From contig NZ_KI421500.1 in assembly GCF_000473145.1 (NCBI RefSeq), positions 930,225-994,224 of the forward strand: DNA of 64,000 bases, given 5' to 3'. Position 1 is the stretch's first letter, and every line of letters begins with the position of its first letter. The position numbers were made by a program, and so were the translations under genes. The notes beneath the pieces were generated by a model. That model saw nothing but the letters and a program-made list of their open reading frames with translations. It searched no databases and was not told where the DNA came from. Positions 13,659 through 23,237 of this stretch are shown piece after piece. The stretch comes from Leisingera daeponensis DSM 23529. Lineage in GTDB: Bacteria; Pseudomonadota; Alphaproteobacteria; Rhodobacterales; Rhodobacteraceae.

Positions 13659-13897
13659 GTCTCAGCCCTTGTTTCCAGCTGCGCCTGCAGCGCGGCGACT
13701 TTCTGATTGAGAAACTCGCGTGCCTTGCGTTCGGCCAGGCGCACGCGCATCTCCGTAAGGAACGCCTCTTCGAGCGATTGGGAGGCGGCGCCCAGCACCT
13801 GGCCCACCTCCACATAAAGCCTCTCCTCGCCGCTGGCGTCCTGAACTTTGAGCGTATCGACCGCCAGTTTTTGGGCCAGCGTCTCGATTGTGCTCAT
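13655..13897 (-). CDS. Small conserved-looking hypothetical protein, 80 aa
   Basis: I do not recognise a named family. The protein is acidic to neutral and largely helical, with no signal peptide or membrane segment. The C-terminal half (LTEMRVRLAERKAREFLNQK and following) could form a coiled coil. It is held between two genes by overlaps of one base (hydrolase stop with its ATG) and four bases (its stop with the HD gene GTG), which argues strongly that it is a real translated gene. It may be a small partner of one of its neighbours, but nothing in the sequence shows this. Confidence 0.7.
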   Translation of the reverse strand: MSTIETLAQKLAVDTLKVQDASGEERLYVEVGQVLGAASQSLEEAFLTEMRVRLAERKAREFLNQKVAALQAQLETRAET

Positions 13898-14550
13898 CAG
13901 CGGGAGGTCTCCGTCAGGCGGCGCTTCACGTAATCGGTCACGTTGCCGATCATCGTGTCCATATACGGATCCTGGAAGAAGTGGTCCGCACCCTCGATCT
14001 CGGTATGGGTGATGGTGATGCCCTTCTGCTCATGCAGCTTGCTGACCAGATTGGCGGTATCGGCGGGCGGCGCCACGCGGTCGGCGGTGCCGTTGATGAT
14101 CAGGCCGGAGGCCGGGCAGGGCGCCAGGAACGAGAAGTCGTACATATTGGCCGGCGGGGCGACTGAGATAAAGCCGGTGATTTCGGGCCGCCGCATCAGC
14201 AGCTGCATACCGATCCAGGCGCCAAAGGAGAAGCCTGCAACCCAGCAATGCTTGGAGTTGGTGTTCATCGACTGCAGGTAATCCAGCGCCGAGGCGGCAT
14301 CGGACAGCTCGCCCACGCCCTGGTCGTATTCGCCCTGGCTGCGGCCGACGCCGCGGAAATTGAAGCGCAGAACCGTGAAGCCCATGTTGTAGAACGCATA
14401 GTGGAGGTTGTAGACCACCTTGTTGTTCATGGTGCCGCCGAACTGCGGGTGCGGGTGCAGCACGATGGCGATCGGGGCGTCTTTTTCTTTTTGCGGGTGA
14501 TAGCGGCCTTCGAGGCGGCCTTCGGGTCCGGGAAAGATGACCTCGGGCAT
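13897..14550 (-). CDS. Alpha/beta hydrolase
   Basis: Cytoplasmic alpha/beta hydrolase of 217 aa. It has an HPHPQFGGTM oxyanion segment, the nucleophile elbow GFSFGA (Ser at about residue 118), an Asp-containing NGTADRVAPP acid loop and a late His in GADHFFQ. It resembles the YpfH/dienelactone hydrolase-like proteins of unknown substrate that begin PEVIFPGPEGRLEGRY. It is the first gene of a minus-strand unit with the 80-aa and tandem-HD genes. It is divergent from iscR, and its promoter shares the 187-bp region that carries the iron-regulated sites. Confidence 0.87.
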   Translation of the reverse strand: MPEVIFPGPEGRLEGRYHPQKEKDAPIAIVLHPHPQFGGTMNNKVVYNLHYAFYNMGFTVLRFNFRGVGRSQGEYDQGVGELSDAASALDYLQSMNTNSKHCWVAGFSFGAWIGMQLLMRRPEITGFISVAPPANMYDFSFLAPCPASGLIINGTADRVAPPADTANLVSKLHEQKGITITHTEIEGADHFFQDPYMDTMIGNVTDYVKRRLTETSR

Positions 14551-14597
14551 GGGCGGTTTAAATCCTAATCTCGTTTTCGGGTCTGCCGGCAGAATAC

Positions 14598-14626
14598 TTG
14601 ACGGGTTCCGTCAGGCATCTTAGAAC
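14598..14626 (+). promoter_or_regulatory. Promoter of the iscR-suf operon
   Basis: TTGACG (14598-14603) and TAGAAC (14621-14626) are separated by exactly 17 bp. The -35 matches five of six consensus bases. The -10 lies inside the Irr-type palindrome, and the -35 lies inside a second inverted repeat. Confidence 0.65.
14599..14613. promoter_or_regulatory. Inverted repeat over the iscR -35
   Basis: Perfect 6-3-6 palindrome TGACGG-GTT-CCGTCA overlapping the -35 hexamer. Its position suggests a repressor operator, and IscR itself is the natural candidate. I could not match it to a consensus from memory, so the assignment is inference. Confidence 0.4.
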
Positions 14627-14634
14627 GGTTCTAA
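14620..14634. promoter_or_regulatory. Irr-type iron control element (ICE) at the iscR -10
   Basis: Perfect palindrome TTAGAA-CGG-TTCTAA, matching the core of the published alphaproteobacterial Irr box (TTTAGAA-N3-TTCTAAA). It covers the -10 of the iscR promoter, so bound Irr should repress the suf operon; Irr is stable when iron or haem is low. Direction of control and binding are inference from position. Confidence 0.75.
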
Positions 14635-14737
14635 TGAAGGGCGCAGGCCGGGGCCGAACACCGTCAGGGTGAGATACGCACAGACGCGGCGAAGGTCAAT
14701 GTTTTCGCATCCGTGCCCCGATTTCGAGGAGACATAG

Positions 14738-15196
14738 ATGAAGCTTTCCACCAAGGGGCGCTATGCTATGGTCGCATTGGCCGACATCGCGCTGCAAACG
14801 CAGGGCGATCTGGTGCCGCTGGGCGATATTTCCAAGCGCCAGGATATTTCCTTGCCTTACCTTGAACAGCTGTTCGTCAAGCTGCGCCGTTCCGGTCTGG
14901 TTGAATCGGTGCGCGGCCCCGGCGGCGGCTACCGCCTGGCCAAGCCGGCGTCGGAGATCCGGATTGTCGACGTTCTGTCTGCCGTGGATGAGACGGTGGA
15001 TGCGATGCACAAGGGAGCTGGTGCCTCCGGGGCGCTGTCGGGCAGCCGGGCGCAATCGCTGACCAACCGCCTGTGGGAGGGGTTGAGCGCGCATGTCTAT
15101 GTGTTCTTGCACCAGACCCGCCTGTCGGATGTGATCAAGAACGACTTGGCGCCGTGCCCGGCAGTGCCCAGCTTGTTTGCGGTTGTCGATGACTGA
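14738..15196 (+). CDS. iscR: Rrf2-family regulator IscR, single-cysteine type
   Basis: Rrf2 winged-helix regulator of 152 aa at the head of the suf operon. The N-terminal DNA-binding domain (KLSTKGRYAMVALADIA, then the RGPGGGYRL wing) is typical. Enterobacterial IscR binds [2Fe-2S] through three cysteines in the region after VDETVDA. Here that region (residues 91-110) has no cysteine, and the whole protein has one, Cys140. This matches my memory of Rhodobacter sphaeroides IscR, reported to bind a cluster with an unusual ligand set. GAGGAG precedes the ATG. The gene probably senses Fe-S status and represses its own operon. Confidence 0.9.
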   Translation: MKLSTKGRYAMVALADIALQTQGDLVPLGDISKRQDISLPYLEQLFVKLRRSGLVESVRGPGGGYRLAKPASEIRIVDVLSAVDETVDAMHKGAGASGALSGSRAQSLTNRLWEGLSAHVYVFLHQTRLSDVIKNDLAPCPAVPSLFAVVDD

Positions 15197-15325
15197 GGCG
15201 GCGTGCGGATGGCGCATCCTCCGGTGCCAGGGCAGGGCGCTTCCCGCTCTGAAGCGGCCGGAAAGCTTTGCGCATTCGTGCAGGGCCGCGTATGAGGCAG
15301 AAGTTATCTGCAAAAAGATGCATCC

Positions 15326-16369
15326 ATGAAGCGTGTTTACCTCGACCATAATGCCACCGCCCTCCTGCGCCCTGAGGCGAAGGATGCGATGATCGCGGCG
15401 ATGGAGGTTTGCGGCAACCCGTCATCGGTGCATGCCGAGGGCCGCGCCGCCAAGGCGCTGGTGGAGAAGGCGCGGGCGCAGGTGGCCGCCGCCTTCGGTG
15501 CGGATGGGGCGGATATCGTGTTTACCTCCGGTTCGACCGAGGGCGCGTCGCTGGCGCTGGCCGGCCGCGGCCTGCATGGCGCGCCGGTGGAGCATGACGC
15601 GGTGCGCGCCTGGACTGTCGAGGATCTGAAAACCGGCTCTGATGGCGGGGTCGAAATTACCGATCCCGCGGCCTCTACCTTGCAGCTGGCCAACTCGGAA
15701 ACCGGTATCGTGCAGCACCTGCCGGACGGGTTGGCGGTGACGGATGCGACCCAGGCCTTTGGCAAACTGCCCGTCGCCTTCAACTGGCTGGGCGCCCAGA
15801 TGGCGCTGATTTCGGCGCATAAACTGGGCGGCCCCAAGGGCATTGGCGCGCTCGTCATGAAGCGCGGCACCGATCTGCCTGCCCAGATCAAGGGCGGCGG
15901 CCAGGAGATGGGCCGCCGGTCCGGCACAGAAAATGTCATTGGAATAGCAGGGTTCGGCGCCGCAGCTGAAGCAGCCGCCAAGGATCTGGCCAATGGGGTC
16001 TGGGACAGGGTTGCAGAACTTAGAAATATTCTAGAGAAGGCGCTTGTGTCTGGCGCAAGCCATACTATTTTTGTCGGGAAGGATCAGAAGCGGCTGCCGA
16101 ACACCCTGTGTTTTGCAACGCCGGGCTGGAAGGGCGAAACCCAGGTCATGCAAATGGACCTTGCGGGATTTGCCATAAGCGCCGGCAGCGCCTGTTCCAG
16201 CGGCAAGGTGCGCGCCAGCGCGGTACTGACCGCCATGGGATATGACGAGGCCACGGCACAGGGCGCGGTGCGCGTGTCGCTGGGGCCGGAGACAACGGAA
16301 GACGACGTGCTGCGCTTTGCCGAGGCGTGGCTGCAGAAAGAAAAGAAACATCGCGCCCGTGCAGCGTGA
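15326..16369 (+). CDS. Cysteine desulfurase, NifS/IscS class
   Basis: PLP enzyme of 347 aa that takes sulfur from cysteine. It shows YLDHNATA near the N-terminus, the PLP lysine Lys166 in [10 protein letters not shown], and the persulfide Cys290 in GSACSSGK, the class I signature. It is shorter than E. coli IscS, as usual for the copy placed second in rhodobacteral suf operons. A class II enzyme, SufS, closes the same operon, so two desulfurases serve one assembly system. The ribosome-binding site is weak and the gene lies 129 bp after iscR. Bases 16020-16034 inside the gene form a near-perfect Irr-type palindrome built from codons rare in this genome. Confidence 0.9.
16020..16034. promoter_or_regulatory. 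ICE-like palindrome inside the desulfurase gene
   Basis: TTAGAA-ATA-TTCTAG matches the Irr core at 11 of 12 arm positions and lies within the coding sequence (residues LRNILE). The codons AGA, AAT, ATT and CTA stand out against the GC-rich codon use around it. Possible second operator or roadblock within the suf operon. Confidence 0.4.
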
Positions 16370-16383
16370 GTGAGGAGATGACG

Positions 16384-17907
<1,524 letters not shown>

Positions 17908-18260: not shown

Positions 18261-18277
18261 GGAGCGGGGAGTTGGAC

Positions 18278-18880
18278 GTGGCCAAGGACGAGCAGCTGAT
18301 TGAGCGCCCGGCGCTTACCCTGCCGCCGGAAGAGGCGGAGTGGGTGTGCAGCCATTACCAGGAGGCAAACGTCATCCTGGAATACGGCAGCGGCGGATCG
18401 ACCGTGCTGGCGTCTGAGCTGAGCGGGAAGAAGATCTACTCCGTTGAGTCCGACAAGATGTGGTACCGCATGATGAAGCGGTACTTGCGTCAGGCCGGGT
18501 CCAAGTCCGAGGTGCATCTGCACCATGCCAATGTCGGCAAAACCGGCAAGTGGGGACGGCCGCTGAACAATGATATGTGGCGGCGGTTTCACCAGTATCC
18601 GAATTCGGTTTGGGATCTGGATGCCTTCGAGGCGCCCGATCTGGTGCTGATTGACGGCCGCTTCCGGGCGGCTTGCTTTCTGACCGTCATGCTGCGCACG
18701 GAGCGGCCCGTCACCGTTCTGTTCGACGACTACGCGGGGCGGGCGCTCTACAAGCAGGTCGAAAAATGGGTGAAGCCGGTTGAAATCCGCGGCCGAATGG
18801 CCCGGTTCGAGCTGCTCCCCGATGAACTTCCGCGCCGGGATCTGACCCAGATCCTGACGCTTTACACCAAAACCTTCTAG
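18278..18880 (+). CDS. Methyltransferase-like (Rossmann fold) protein in the suf operon
   Basis: Protein of 200 aa. VILEYGSGGST near residue 32 resembles SAM-binding motif I, and VYSVESD-like residues (IYSVESDKMW) follow as motif II. PDLVLIDGRFRAACFL and TVLFDDY look like later strands of the fold. No methyl acceptor or catalytic pocket can be named, and it could be an inactive relative. The start is GTG 18278, seven bases after GGGGA; TTG 18272 is too close to that site. It is co-directional with sufB and sufC and so belongs to the Fe-S operon, though its role there is unknown. Confidence 0.7.
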   Translation: MAKDEQLIERPALTLPPEEAEWVCSHYQEANVILEYGSGGSTVLASELSGKKIYSVESDKMWYRMMKRYLRQAGSKSEVHLHHANVGKTGKWGRPLNNDMWRRFHQYPNSVWDLDAFEAPDLVLIDGRFRAACFLTVMLRTERPVTVLFDDYAGRALYKQVEKWVKPVEIRGRMARFELLPDELPRRDLTQILTLYTKTF

Positions 18881-18921
18881 GCGCCGACGGCGGCCGGAAC
18901 AGTACTATGCGAGAGGCAAAA

Positions 18922-19677
18922 ATGCTCGAAATCAAAAACCTGCACGTCAAGCTTGAAGACGAAGACAAGCAGATCCTGAACGGCGTCGACCTCACCGTCG
19001 AAGCGGGCAAGGTGCATGCGATCATGGGGCCGAACGGCTCGGGCAAGTCCACCCTGTCCTATGTCCTGTCGGGCCGTGACGGCTATGAGGTGACGGAAGG
19101 CACTGCTGAGCTGGAAGGCGAAAACATCCTGGAGATGGAGCCGGAAGAGCGCGCCGCGGCGGGCATGTTCCTGGCGTTCCAGTATCCGGTCGAAATCCCC
19201 GGCGTCGGCAACATGACCTTCCTGCGCACCGCTGTCAACGCGCAGCGCAAGGCCCGCGGCGAGGAAGAGCTGTCGGCTTCCGACTTCCTGAAGGAAGTGC
19301 GCGCCAAGGCCAAAACTCTGCAGATCGACGCTGAGATGCTGAAGCGCCCGGTCAACGTCGGCTTCTCCGGCGGGGAGAAGAAACGCAACGAAATCCTGCA
19401 GATGGCGATGCTGGAGCCGAAGCTGTGCATCCTGGACGAGACCGACTCCGGCCTCGACGTGGATGCGATGAAGCTGGTGGCCGACGGTGTGAACGCCCTG
19501 CGCGACGAAGGCCGCGGCTTCCTGGTGATCACCCACTACCAGCGCCTGCTGGACCACATCAAACCCGACGTGGTGCACATTCTGGCCAACGGCCGCATCG
19601 TCAAGACCGGCGGCCCCGAGCTGGCGCTGGAAGTCGAAAACAACGGTTACGCCGGCATCCTGGCAGAGGAGGCGTAA
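18922..19677 (+). CDS. sufC: Fe-S assembly ATPase SufC
   Basis: ABC-type ATPase of the soluble SufBCD complex, 251 aa. Walker A is GPNGSGKST, the signature is modified to GFSGGEKKRNEIL as in all SufC proteins, and Walker B is CILDETDSGLD. GAGAGG at 18911-18916 selects ATG 18922 over ATG 18907. The stop codon is immediately followed by the sufD ATG. Its ATP hydrolysis drives conformational change in SufB-SufD during cluster assembly. Confidence 0.97.
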   Translation: MLEIKNLHVKLEDEDKQILNGVDLTVEAGKVHAIMGPNGSGKSTLSYVLSGRDGYEVTEGTAELEGENILEMEPEERAAAGMFLAFQYPVEIPGVGNMTFLRTAVNAQRKARGEEELSASDFLKEVRAKAKTLQIDAEMLKRPVNVGFSGGEKKRNEILQMAMLEPKLCILDETDSGLDVDAMKLVADGVNALRDEGRGFLVITHYQRLLDHIKPDVVHILANGRIVKTGGPELALEVENNGYAGILAEEA

Positions 19678-20958
19678 ATGGCCCTGCCCGAAGTCAAGCA
19701 AAGCGCAACCGAGGCGCGGCTGTCGGCGCTGAGCCTGCCGGAAAGCGGCTGCCTCAAGGCGGCCCGCGAGGCCGCGCTGTCGCGGGTCCAGACCATGGGC
19801 CTGCCCAGCCGCCGCGACGAATACTGGAAATACACCAAGCCGGACACGCTGGTGCAGGCAGACGCGCCCAAGGCGGCTGTGTTCAATGCGGACGAAGCGC
19901 CGATGTTCAGCGCCTTTGAGCGTCTGAATATCGTTTTCGTCGATGGCGTGTTCGATGCCGAGGCCTCCGACGATCTGTCACTTGAAGGTGTCACGATCGA
20001 CCGGATCGAGGATATCTGCTGCAAGGATATCCATTGGGCCAAGGACTTGTACGGCGTTCTTGAAGCGCGCGGCCAGACCCCGGTGGAACGTCCGCTGGCG
20101 GCGCTGAACACCGCCTTTGCCACAGATGGCGTTGCGATCCGGGTGACCGGGAAAGTCTCCAAGCCGATCAATTTCACCTATGTGCATTCGGACGAAAACT
20201 CCGACGCGATCCTGCACCATGTGATCCGCGTGGAGACCGGTGCCGAGGTGACAATCCTTGAAAACGGCCCGGCAGCCTCGCGCTTCAACAAGTGCATGGA
20301 GATCGACATTGCCGACGGCGGCAAACTGCATCTGGTGCGCGCCCAGGGCCGCGACCACGAGCGCCGCGCCGCCACCCACCTGTTTGCCCGCCTGGGCACC
20401 GAGTCGGTGTTCAAGTCCTTCACCCTGACCGTGAACGGGGTGCTGACCCGCAACGAGGCGGTGATTGAGCTGACCGGCGACGATGCGGTGGCCCATATCG
20501 CAGGCGCCTGCGTCGGCGATGGCGACTTCCACCACGACGACACCGTCTTTATCACCCATGACGCGGTGAACTGCGAAAGCCGCCAGGTGTTCAAGAAGGT
20601 GCTGCGCAACGGCGCCACGGGTGTGTTCCAAGGCAAGATCCTGGTGAAGGAAGGCGCGCAAAAGACTGACGGATATCAGATTTCCCAGTCACTGCTGCTG
20701 GACGAAGACAGCCAGTTCCTGGCCAAGCCGGAGCTGGAGATCTATGCCGACGACGTGGCTTGCTCGCATGGCTCTACCTCCGGCGCGATCGACGATGAAG
20801 GTCTGTTTTACCTGCGCTCCCGCGGTGTGCCGCATGCCGAGGCGACTGACCTGATGACGCTGGCTTTCCTGGCCGAAGCGGTGGAAGAGATCGAAGACGC
20901 GGAGATCGCCGCTGATATCGTCTCCCGCCTCGAAGGCTGGCTGGCCCGGCGCCGCTGA
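19678..20958 (+). CDS. sufD: Fe-S assembly subunit SufD
   Basis: SufB-like beta-helix partner in the SufBCD scaffold, 426 aa. The conserved DDVACSHGSTSGAIDDEGLFYLRSRG region contains the histidine that lies at the SufB-SufD interface where the nascent cluster is thought to form. The N-terminal PSRRDEYWKYT segment is also typical. It starts directly after the sufC stop with GGAGG inside the end of sufC. Its own stop overlaps the next start by one base, which indicates tight coupling. Confidence 0.95.
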   Translation: MALPEVKQSATEARLSALSLPESGCLKAAREAALSRVQTMGLPSRRDEYWKYTKPDTLVQADAPKAAVFNADEAPMFSAFERLNIVFVDGVFDAEASDDLSLEGVTIDRIEDICCKDIHWAKDLYGVLEARGQTPVERPLAALNTAFATDGVAIRVTGKVSKPINFTYVHSDENSDAILHHVIRVETGAEVTILENGPAASRFNKCMEIDIADGGKLHLVRAQGRDHERRAATHLFARLGTESVFKSFTLTVNGVLTRNEAVIELTGDDAVAHIAGACVGDGDFHHDDTVFITHDAVNCESRQVFKKVLRNGATGVFQGKILVKEGAQKTDGYQISQSLLLDEDSQFLAKPELEIYADDVACSHGSTSGAIDDEGLFYLRSRGVPHAEATDLMTLAFLAEAVEEIEDAEIAADIVSRLEGWLARRR

Positions 20959-21443
20959 TGTCCGTCACCACGGATATCCCCGCAACCTACAAGGGGCCGC
21001 GCAAGGTTTTTGCGCGGCTTCTGAGTATGGGCGCCCGCGAAGACCGGCTGCTGGTGTTCCTTATCGTTGGCTGCGTGCTGACCTTTGTGGCGCAGATGCC
21101 GAAACTGGCCCGAGAGGCGCATCTGACGGGCCAGGAACTGAATATGCTGCTGGGCGGCGCGCTGCTCGGCATCGTCTTTATCGCGCCGCTGTTTCTGTAT
21201 GTTCTGGCTCTGGTCGCGCATTGGATTGCCCGCGCCGCAGGCGGGCAGGGTGATGCCTACCGCGCGCGGCTGGCGCTGTTCTGGGCGTTTCTGGCGTCCA
21301 GCCCGCTGATCCTGCTGAACGGCCTGGTGGCTGGTTTCATCGGCGCCGGTGCGGCGCTGAACCTGGTGGGCGCGCTGTGGTGCGCGGTGTTCCTTTGGTT
21401 CTGGGTGTCCGGCATGATCCAAGGGTACTGGACAAAATCATGA
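20958..21443 (+). CDS. YIP1-family membrane protein 1
   Basis: Inner-membrane protein of 161 aa with about four hydrophobic helices (near residues 32-48, 65-90, 107-127 and 130-155). It resembles the YIP1 domain family, whose bacterial members have no settled function. It overlaps sufD by one base (TGATG) and the next gene by four, so it is translated as part of the suf message. The two adjacent YIP1 proteins may pair in the membrane; that is a guess from adjacency. Confidence 0.75.
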   Translation: MSVTTDIPATYKGPRKVFARLLSMGAREDRLLVFLIVGCVLTFVAQMPKLAREAHLTGQELNMLLGGALLGIVFIAPLFLYVLALVAHWIARAAGGQGDAYRARLALFWAFLASSPLILLNGLVAGFIGAGAALNLVGALWCAVFLWFWVSGMIQGYWTKS

Positions 21444-22024
21444 ACGCGCTGGCCGCCTTTGCCCTTTTGACACTCAAGTCCCCGCGCGACGCCGCGATGC
21501 AGATCCTGGCGCGCGACTGGCCGCGCGAGGCGCTGTGGACCGCATTTCTGCTGTCGGTGGTGCTGAACACTTGCGTCTATACTCTGCAGCAGGTGCTGTT
21601 CCCGCTGCCGCCGGAGGTTCTGCTGCCAAGGTTTGCGCCCGGGGCCTATTTCGCGGTCATTCTGGTGCTGCAGCTGAGCTTCATTGCGATGCTGGCCACC
21701 ACTGGCCGCTGGCTGGGCGGGCATGGTGACCTGCCGTCGCTGCTGGCGCTGGTCACCTGGCTGCAGCTTTTGCAGGCTGGGCTGAACGGTGCCATTGTGG
21801 CGGTCTTCCTGGTCCTGCCGGCGCTGGCGGCGCTGCTGAACATCGCCGCCAATATCGTCGTGTTCTTTATCCTCTTGCATTTCGTGAATGCGGCGCACAG
21901 GTTCGGCTCCGTTTGGCGCTCGCTTGGGGTGGTCCTGATGGCCAGCCTGATCCTGGTGTTTGCCCTTCTCTTCATCGTGGGTCTGATCGGCCCAGCCAAT
22001 CTGGGACTGCCCGAAAATGTATGA
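21440..22024 (+). CDS. YIP1-family membrane protein 2
   Basis: Inner-membrane protein of 194 aa with a short amphipathic N-terminus (KSPRDAAMQILARDWPREALW) followed by five likely membrane helices. It shows YIP1-like features, including the helix-loop around LQAGLNGAIVAVFLVLPALAAL. The start overlaps the previous stop in ATGA and its stop overlaps the sufS start by eight bases. Being wedged between SufD and SufS with overlaps on both sides suggests an old, selected linkage to Fe-S assembly, but the function is unknown. Confidence 0.78.
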   Translation: MNALAAFALLTLKSPRDAAMQILARDWPREALWTAFLLSVVLNTCVYTLQQVLFPLPPEVLLPRFAPGAYFAVILVLQLSFIAMLATTGRWLGGHGDLPSLLALVTWLQLLQAGLNGAIVAVFLVLPALAALLNIAANIVVFFILLHFVNAAHRFGSVWRSLGVVLMASLILVFALLFIVGLIGPANLGLPENV

Positions 22025-23237
22025 CGTCGAAAAAATCCGTGCCGACTTCCCGATCCTCTCGCGCGAGGTGAACGGCAAGCCGCTGACCTATCTCGACAGC
22101 GGCGCCTCGGCCCAGAAGCCGCAGGTTGTGATCGACGCGGTGACCAAGGCGTATGCCGAGGAATATTCCAATGTTCATCGGGGTTTGCATTTTCTTTCTA
22201 ATCTCGCGACGGAGAAGTATGAGGCGGTGCGCGGCATCATCTCCCGGTTCCTGAATGCGGGCGACGAACACAGCATCGTGCTGAACTCCGGCACCACCGA
22301 GGGCATCAATCTGGTCGCCTATGGATGGGCGATGCCCCGGCTTGAGGCAGGCGACGAAATCCTGTTGTCGGTGATGGAGCACCACGCCAACATCGTGCCC
22401 TGGCATTTCCTGCGCGAGCGTCAGGGCGTCGTGCTGAGGTGGGTCGATACCGAGGCAGACGGCAGCCTGGACCCGCAGAAAGTGATCGACGCGATCACCC
22501 CCAAAACCAAGCTGGTGGCGGTGACCCAATGCTCCAACGTGCTGGGCACTGTGGTGGACGTGAAGGCCATCACCCAGGGTGCCCATGCCAAAGGGGTGCC
22601 GGTGCTGGTCGACGGCTCGCAGGGGGCGGTTCACATGCCGGTCAACGTGCAGGACATCGGCTGCGACTTCTATGCAATCACCGGCCATAAGCTCTATGGC
22701 CCGTCTGCGTCCGGCGCGATCTACATCAAGCCCGAACGCATGGCGGAGATGCGCCCGTTCGTCGGCGGCGGCGACATGATCAAGGAAGTCTCCAAGGAGC
22801 AGGTGATCTACAACGATCCGCCGATGAAGTTCGAAGCCGGCACGCCGGGCATTGTGCAGACGATCGGCCTGGGCGTGGCGCTGGAATACATGATGGATCT
22901 CGGCATGGAGAACATCGCCAGGCACGAGGCCGGTTTGCGCGACTATGCGATGGAGCGGCTGACCGGACTGAATTGGATCAACGTGCAGGGGCAAGCGCCT
23001 GGTAAGGCAGCTATTTTCAGCTTTACCATGGAAGGTGCGGCGCACGCCCATGACATTTCCACCATCCTCGACAAGAAAGGCGTTGCGGTACGTGCCGGGC
23101 ATCACTGTGCCGGGCCGCTGATGGACCACCTTGGGGTATCTGCGACCTGCCGCGCGTCGTTCGGCCTTTATAATACCAAGGAAGAAGTCGACACGCTGAT
23201 CAGCGCGCTGGAACTTGCCCACGACTTGTTTGCTTGA
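22017..23237 (+). CDS. sufS: Cysteine desulfurase SufS
   Basis: Class II cysteine desulfurase of 406 aa that mobilises sulfur for the SUF pathway. PLP lysine is Lys225 in ITGHKLYGPSASG; the catalytic Cys364 sits in RAGHHCAGPL, the class II signature. Such enzymes normally need an activating sulfur acceptor, SufE or SufU. Neither is seen in this operon, nor is sufA or sufT, so they must lie elsewhere if present. The start overlaps the YIP1 gene by eight bases. A strong terminator follows 20 bp after the stop. Confidence 0.96.
   Translation: MYDVEKIRADFPILSREVNGKPLTYLDSGASAQKPQVVIDAVTKAYAEEYSNVHRGLHFLSNLATEKYEAVRGIISRFLNAGDEHSIVLNSGTTEGINLVAYGWAMPRLEAGDEILLSVMEHHANIVPWHFLRERQGVVLRWVDTEADGSLDPQKVIDAITPKTKLVAVTQCSNVLGTVVDVKAITQGAHAKGVPVLVDGSQGAVHMPVNVQDIGCDFYAITGHKLYGPSASGAIYIKPERMAEMRPFVGGGDMIKEVSKEQVIYNDPPMKFEAGTPGIVQTIGLGVALEYMMDLGMENIARHEAGLRDYAMERLTGLNWINVQGQAPGKAAIFSFTMEGAAHAHDISTILDKKGVAVRAGHHCAGPLMDHLGVSATCRASFGLYNTKEEVDTLISALELAHDLFA

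Follow-up and report, generated by a model that had tools for sequence, protein, structure and literature searches.

Promoter P2 of the iscR-iscS-sufBCDS operon of Leisingera daeponensis is a real two-operator promoter, with an IscR Type-1-like site over the -35 hexamer and a predicted Irr box over the -10 hexamer and the projected start. The layout itself is not new; it was predicted in 2006, and half of that prediction, the binding of IscR, has been confirmed in R. sphaeroides. What is new is that the P2 Irr box is widely kept across the family. The best explanation, to which we give a probability of about 0.7, is that P2 is the main promoter with abutting operators for two repressors, IscR and Irr, and that a second Irr/IscR pair is located at an internal promoter, P3. 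The window, by which we mean the whole stretch of DNA analysed, is 64,000 nucleotides long.

The P2 promoter and its operon

The promoter elements were read directly in positions 14200 to 15400 of the window. On the forward strand TTGACG (14598-14603) and TAGAAC (14621-14626) are separated by 17 bp, within the 17 +/- 1 bp of sigma-70-type spacing, and these elements and coordinates are those of the original prediction. It also placed one perfect palindrome on each hexamer, and both are present. TGACGG-GTT-CCGTCA (14599-14613) covers the -35 and TTAGAA-CGG-TTCTAA (14620-14634, 12 of 12 positions) covers the -10, each with the spacing 6-3-6. The first palindrome and the -35 hexamer are held within the IscR Type-1-like operator ATACTTGACGGGTTCCGTCAGGCAT (14594-14618, forward strand). 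The second constitutes the Irr box TTAGAACGGTTCTAA (14620-14634, forward strand), so assigned from its conservation and its association with irr, which spans the -10 and the P2 transcription start, projected to 14634 by homology with R. sphaeroides P2.

The genome (4.64 Mb) has a single exact copy of TTAGAACGGTTCTAA. Within the window the Irr motif shows no excess (four found at up to three mismatches, 3.39 expected). The -35 motif is loose there (83 found versus 40 expected at up to three mismatches), and its perfect copy is unique. The significance of the two sites therefore rests on their position and conservation. A loose scan of the genome for IscR-like sites was uninformative, with at least 250 forward and at least 264 reverse matches. 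In the stretch 14634-14760, searched for a leader-RNA structure, the fold is no better than those of shuffled sequences (z 0.86).

The genes of the operon all lie on the forward strand. The product of iscR (14738-15196) has TIGR02010 as its best match, at 144.6 bits and under the cut-off of 207.55. It belongs to the single-cysteine Rhodobacteraceae type; the only Cys of its translation lies in APCPA, which agrees with the single C-terminal Cys followed by Pro of IscR in Rhodobacteraceae, as in C142-P143 of R. sphaeroides (Remes 2015, PMC4618611). The iscS-type cysteine desulfurase (15326-16369) matches NifS/IscS models under their cut-offs. Its neighbour sufB (16378-17907; NF008773, 904 bits, over cut-off) is listed as an open reading frame from 16327, and the ATG at 16378 is our choice of start. 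Next come sufC (18907-19677; TIGR01978, over cut-off), sufD (19678-20958; TIGR01981, barely over cut-off at 222.7 versus 222) and sufS (22017-23237; TIGR01979, over cut-off). Two open reading frames within the suf gene cluster, 18272-18880 and 20958-21443, have no NCBIfam match.

Upstream of iscR and divergent from it lies an alpha/beta hydrolase gene (13897-14550, reverse strand; Pfam Hydrolase_4 and Abhydrolase_1), by position the counterpart of RSP_0444. It is served by P5, a promoter opposing P2 on the reverse strand, with TTGACC (14694-14699) as its -35 and, 17 bp away, TATCTC (14671-14676) as its -10. The P5 elements are also conserved. GTCAA lies between the Irr box and iscR in all 169 box-bearing promoters, and the T and the A of the -10 are each present in 97% of these at a fixed distance from GTCAA. 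P5 faces P2, and the projected distance from the P2 start down to the P5 start is about 30 bp. Polymerases at the two promoters should overlap, yet in R. sphaeroides the effect of P5 is to increase P2 activity, by a mechanism described as unexplained (Nie 2019, PMC6956336).

Conservation of the P2 Irr box

IscR was found in 196 of 198 genomes of the family, each with its own genus code. The best IscR match was used, in 149 genomes first and then in 41 of the remaining 49, which makes 190 in total. The eight genomes excluded have IscR missing, partial or weak, and second copies (in G181 and G136) were unused. Four of these eight had an iscS match; their upstream regions were truncated or told nothing about P2.

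In 139 of the 149 genera, window included, the 450 nt upstream of iscR contain the motif TTAGAA-N3-TTCTAA at 11 or 12 of 12 positions. It scores 12 in 110 genera, 11 in 29, 10 in three and 7 to 9 in seven. By comparison, each of 59 control palindromes of equal base make-up reaches 11 of 12 in at most one genome. TTGAC is found 22 bases upstream of the box in 135 of the 139 genera and 23 bases upstream in three, and is absent in one; the promoter spacing of the window is thus shared by 135 of 139 promoters. Outside the family the dual pattern (at most one mismatch) was found in 7 of 285 genomes versus 10 control hits, which is the level of chance, and in four of four genomes of the same family.

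Among 169 Irr boxes there are 36 different 3-bp centres, so it is the arms that are selected and not the centre. For the same reason a LexA reading of the -10 palindrome (GAAC..GTTC) was dropped, because its three central bases vary freely. The right arm, TTCTAA, is no promoter element and is exact in 151 of the 169 boxes. Twelve of the 21 promoters lacking an Irr box keep TTGAC and TA at a spacer of 16-18 bp, 11 of them as TAG, and on this evidence they appear to be promoters retained without the right arm. In 135 of 139 promoters 21 bp, or two helical turns, separate the centres of the two operators. We considered this as proof of Irr-IscR contact and rejected it. The distance is uninformative because the 17-bp spacer between -35 and -10 forces it, and P5 is equally fixed.

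Probable assignment of the -10 palindrome to Irr

The genome of the window encodes an Irr protein that scores over the cut-off of NF045677 (202 versus 170 bits) and over that of NF045678. Perfect TTAGAA-N3-TTCTAA occurs at two places in this genome, in front of iscR and upstream of an mbfA-like gene (rubrerythrin and VIT1 domains). In R. sphaeroides mbfA is a demonstrated Irr target, and its Irr box (ICE) covers the 5' end (Peuser 2012, PMC3413700). The comparison covers the box only, and mbfA differs from the iscR-suf operon in being an iron storage gene.

Irr is over cut-off in 178 of the 198 genomes. Genomes were called Irr-lacking where the best E-value was none or weaker than 1e-20, which applies to 18 genomes, 15 of them among the 190. 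The window Irr used as a query in Irr-lacking genomes gave no hits or weak ones, with 27-36% identity, like its own Fur/Mur. With the P2 box counted as present at 10 of 12 or better, it is found in 163 of 175 genomes with Irr versus 6 of 15 without, and hence 12 Irr-bearing genomes are without it. When only assemblies of fewer than 200 contigs (contig numbers rounded) are considered, these figures become 140 of 150 versus 0 of 7 (Fisher 5e-8, a value that ignores kinship); where in addition IscR is less than 76% identical, they are 29 of 34 versus 0 of 7. All six Irr-lacking genomes that bear the box are assemblies of at least 200 contigs, so their irr gene may have been missed, and fragmentation confounds the comparison over all genomes.

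Kinship was addressed with independent phylogenetic pairs on a FastTree tree of IscR and IscS from which the site codons were omitted. With the eight fragmented Irr-lacking genomes set aside, five of five pairs agree (p 0.0625). The result with all genomes is weak, with 4.5 pairs agreeing, 0.2 disagreeing and 4.3 tied. Three lines of evidence thus support the -10 palindrome as a putative Irr site: an Irr protein and a box at the mbfA-like gene in the same genome, the conserved right arm, and the association with irr, including the absence of the box from the better-assembled genomes that lack the gene. The original assignment to Irr is to that extent upheld.

Irr-like boxes with one mismatch were also seen at other loci. 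At locus L006 (1501-1515) the box TTAGAATAGTTCCAA precedes an nfuA-like Fe-S scaffold gene (Nfu_N and NifU domains) by about 65 nt and is located just upstream of TTGACT; through it, Irr may link another Fe-S assembly gene with the operon. At L003 (1501-1515) such a box precedes a peroxiredoxin-like gene (Redoxin domain) by about 50 nt, and at L005 (1501-1515) TTAGCAAAATTCTAA is near an open reading frame with no Pfam match.

The IscR site over the -35 hexamer

At 21 of 25 positions the -35 site agrees with the Type-1 IscR consensus ATASYYGACTRWWWYAGTCRRSTAT, that of E. coli as printed in PMC6599224. This is the best of 127,952 positions scored on both strands of the window, the next best having 18 of 25. 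A score of 17 or more is found at the -35 place in 142 of 167 promoters, window included, versus 1.4% of 354 other TTGAC places. These scores favour the proposed assignment to IscR. The perfect 6+6 dyad, in contrast, is found in the window only, one of 138 promoters compared, and sets it apart from R. sphaeroides P2. The family form is attcTTGACGAAWTCgCTCGG, so that the conserved feature at the -35 is an imperfect IscR Type-1-like site and not a perfect palindrome. Alignment across relatives had been proposed as a check on both palindromes; comparison with them bears out the Irr box (139 of 149) and fails to recover the -35 symmetry. The double perfect symmetry that drew attention to P2 is thus partly accidental; of the two palindromes, the Irr box alone has its perfection conserved.

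The -35 palindrome could instead serve another Rrf2 regulator, for example a RirA-like protein, although we hold this to be very unlikely. Its TGA-N9-TCA fits the spacing of a RirA box, which counts for such a regulator, and the Iron-Rhodo-box is reported to resemble the RirA box (PMC4618611). The 21 of 25 match to the IscR consensus argues against it, as does R. sphaeroides, where IscR binds P2 and, according to a section heading of Nie 2019 (PMC6956336), RirA proteins leave the operon unaffected. IscR remains the preferred reading of the -35 site. A close parallel is site B of the isc promoter of Pseudomonas aeruginosa, ATAGTTGACCTAATTACTCGGATAA at -18 to -42, which is very like the family -35 consensus (PMC6599224). 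The window differs from the P. aeruginosa and E. coli Type-1 sites in its Irr box, none being described there, and in its IscR, which has a single cysteine whereas theirs have three for the cluster.

A second Irr box inside iscS

The window has another Irr box, TTAGAAATATTCTAG, inside iscS (16020-16034, forward strand), the counterpart of the R. sphaeroides P3 site that binds Irr. An IscR Type-1-like site of the same internal promoter follows at 16057-16081 (forward strand, 18 of 25). Of the 149 genera, 145 are readable at this place; the box scores 11 of 12 in 106, 10 in three and 5 to 8 in 36. All 109 genera that keep it (10-11 of 12) have it at one codon position, and the codons involved are rare ones. 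All 109 use AGA there and 108 of them use CTA, while in the rest of iscR and the neighbouring part of iscS AGA makes up 1.5% of Arg codons and CTA 1.6% of Leu codons.

The iscS box is associated with irr more weakly than the P2 box. Of the genomes with Irr, 123 of 173 carry it, compared with 3 of 11 Irr-lacking ones (p 0.005); in assemblies of fewer than 200 contigs the figures are 107 of 149 versus 1 of 6 (p 0.01). One of the three Irr-lacking genomes that have it (G167, 10 of 12) is a good assembly. Across the 173 Irr-bearing genomes readable at both places, 112 have both boxes (in one of these, G090, the P3 match is out of register), 50 have P2 only, 11 have P3 only and none has neither (one-sided Fisher 0.02). 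This is suggestive of an either-site pattern, in which the P2 or the P3 box would always be kept with Irr.

A second set, of 80 named loci with the best relatives of the IscR of G051, partly overlaps the first genome set and was compared for the two boxes only. Here 49 have both boxes, 17 P3 only and 7 P2 only (p 0.14, 73 readable). In the remaining seven the P2 box is absent and P3 is unreadable, so some of them may lack both boxes. Phylogenetic pairs for the either-site pattern are too few for a decision.

A stronger reading is that Irr control is obligatory wherever Irr exists. The P2 site and the rare-codon iscS site would then be interchangeable carriers that are never both lost, the P2 box would go when Irr goes, and R. 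sphaeroides would rely on the internal copy while its P2 copy decays. We consider the odds on this reading to be even. It is weakened by the seven of 80 loci without a P2 box that are unreadable at P3, and by the 3 of 11 Irr-lacking genomes that keep the P3 box.

P2 in R. sphaeroides

Rodionov 2006, as cited by Nie 2019 (PMC6956336), predicted an IscR box at -36 to -19 and an Irr box at -13 to +1 of R. sphaeroides P2. These coordinates project onto 14598-14615 (IscR) and 14621-14634 (Irr) in the window. The operon is the same, with the IscR box over the -35, the Irr box over the -10 and start, and equal spacing, and both species have the opposing P5 and an internal P3 with Irr and IscR sites. 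The original prediction was right that an Irr box ahead of iscR-suf is already on record. Its view of the dual layout as an untested novelty does not hold: the 2006 prediction already describes that layout, and assays in R. sphaeroides detected binding of IscR to P2 but none of Irr. A search of titles and abstracts, with subscription journals mostly outside its coverage, found none on the family-wide conservation of these sites.

IscR binds and regulates R. sphaeroides P2 (Remes 2015, PMC4618611; Nie 2019, PMC6956336). At P3, Irr binds the promoter region, and the IscR site GACTATTTCTGTCGG is part of a fragment with demonstrated IscR binding (Nie 2019, PMC6956336). Purified Irr gave no shift of the iscR upstream region, either in Peuser 2012 (PMC3413700) or in Nie 2019 (PMC6956336). 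R. sphaeroides is, as far as we found, the only species assayed.

A rival reading is that Irr is inactive at P2, where the conserved sequence would be a -10/start region only, and that Irr control comes from the internal P3 alone, as Nie et al. concluded for R. sphaeroides. We regard this as improbable. Beside the negative gel shifts of two papers (PMC3413700, PMC6956336), it can draw on the description of the small Irr effects at P2 as indirect (Nie 2019, PMC6956336), on Irr binding at P3 and on the P3 box of 123 of 173 Irr-bearing genomes. Against it stand the 50 Irr-bearing genomes that have the P2 box alone, the absence of the box from the seven better-assembled genomes without irr, and the state of the right arm, which is altered in the genome carrying the R. 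sphaeroides strings (TTAGAACCATTCCAC) and exact in 151 of 169 boxes.

That genome, G051 (seven contigs), holds locus L157, the sole locus of 149 with all three exact strings of Nie et al. (P1 Irr-like, P1 IscR-like and P3 IscR site; PMC6956336). Its P3 Irr box also agrees over the 15 bases compared, and from these matches G051 is very probably R. sphaeroides. Whereas the window has a perfect palindrome, the right arm of the G051 P2 box carries two changes, in a species in which Irr binding went unseen. The eroded P2 box may therefore be a reason for the negative gel shifts, and the R. sphaeroides P2 box is probably decaying. Cereibacter changlensis has TTAGAACGGTTCCAA at this place. The P2 box is missing from four Gemmobacter loci (L237, L248, L254, L257) and from a similar MAG (L246), and in all five iscS is unreadable at the P3 place in the locus; in these iscR may be uncoupled from suf.

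A model of P2 regulation

The two-repressor reading of P2 would work as follows. Cluster-loaded IscR on the Type-1 site over the -35 would shut P2 when Fe-S clusters are plentiful. Irr requires the absence of its co-regulator haem to bind ICE (review PMC7762939), and would thus be active under haem and iron scarcity, when it would hold P2 down from the ICE palindrome that spans the -10 and the start. As the two repressors would respond to opposite iron states, P2 transcription would be highest in between. The IscR and Irr sites abut, so joint occupancy is doubtful and the two proteins would presumably exclude each other. The second Irr/IscR pair inside iscS would control the internal promoter P3 for the suf genes, and Irr control of the operon could be carried by either the P2 or the P3 site. 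The support for a putative Irr action at P2 comes from evolution, and in R. sphaeroides the iron dependence of suf is stronger without Irr (Nie 2019, PMC6956336), in line with this model.

One result speaks against pure repression and is unexplained by this model. R. sphaeroides without Irr has about 2-fold lower P2 activity in iron-replete cells (Nie 2019, PMC6956336). Irr at P2 might accordingly be an activator, and it can activate depending on the position of its box (review PMC7762939). We think this quite unlikely. With the box at -13 to +1, a dimer bound to it should stand in the way of polymerase, and the 5' end of R. sphaeroides mbfA also lies in an Irr box, an arrangement that its authors regard as consistent with repression (PMC3413700). 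Repression by Irr remains our preferred reading of P2.

The contradiction between a predicted Irr box at P2 and unseen Irr binding becomes directly testable in species with a perfect box. P2 would provide a densely sampled example from nature of one promoter shared by two iron sensors that respond in opposite ways, and the iscS site one of an operator that over 100 genera have retained within a coding sequence.
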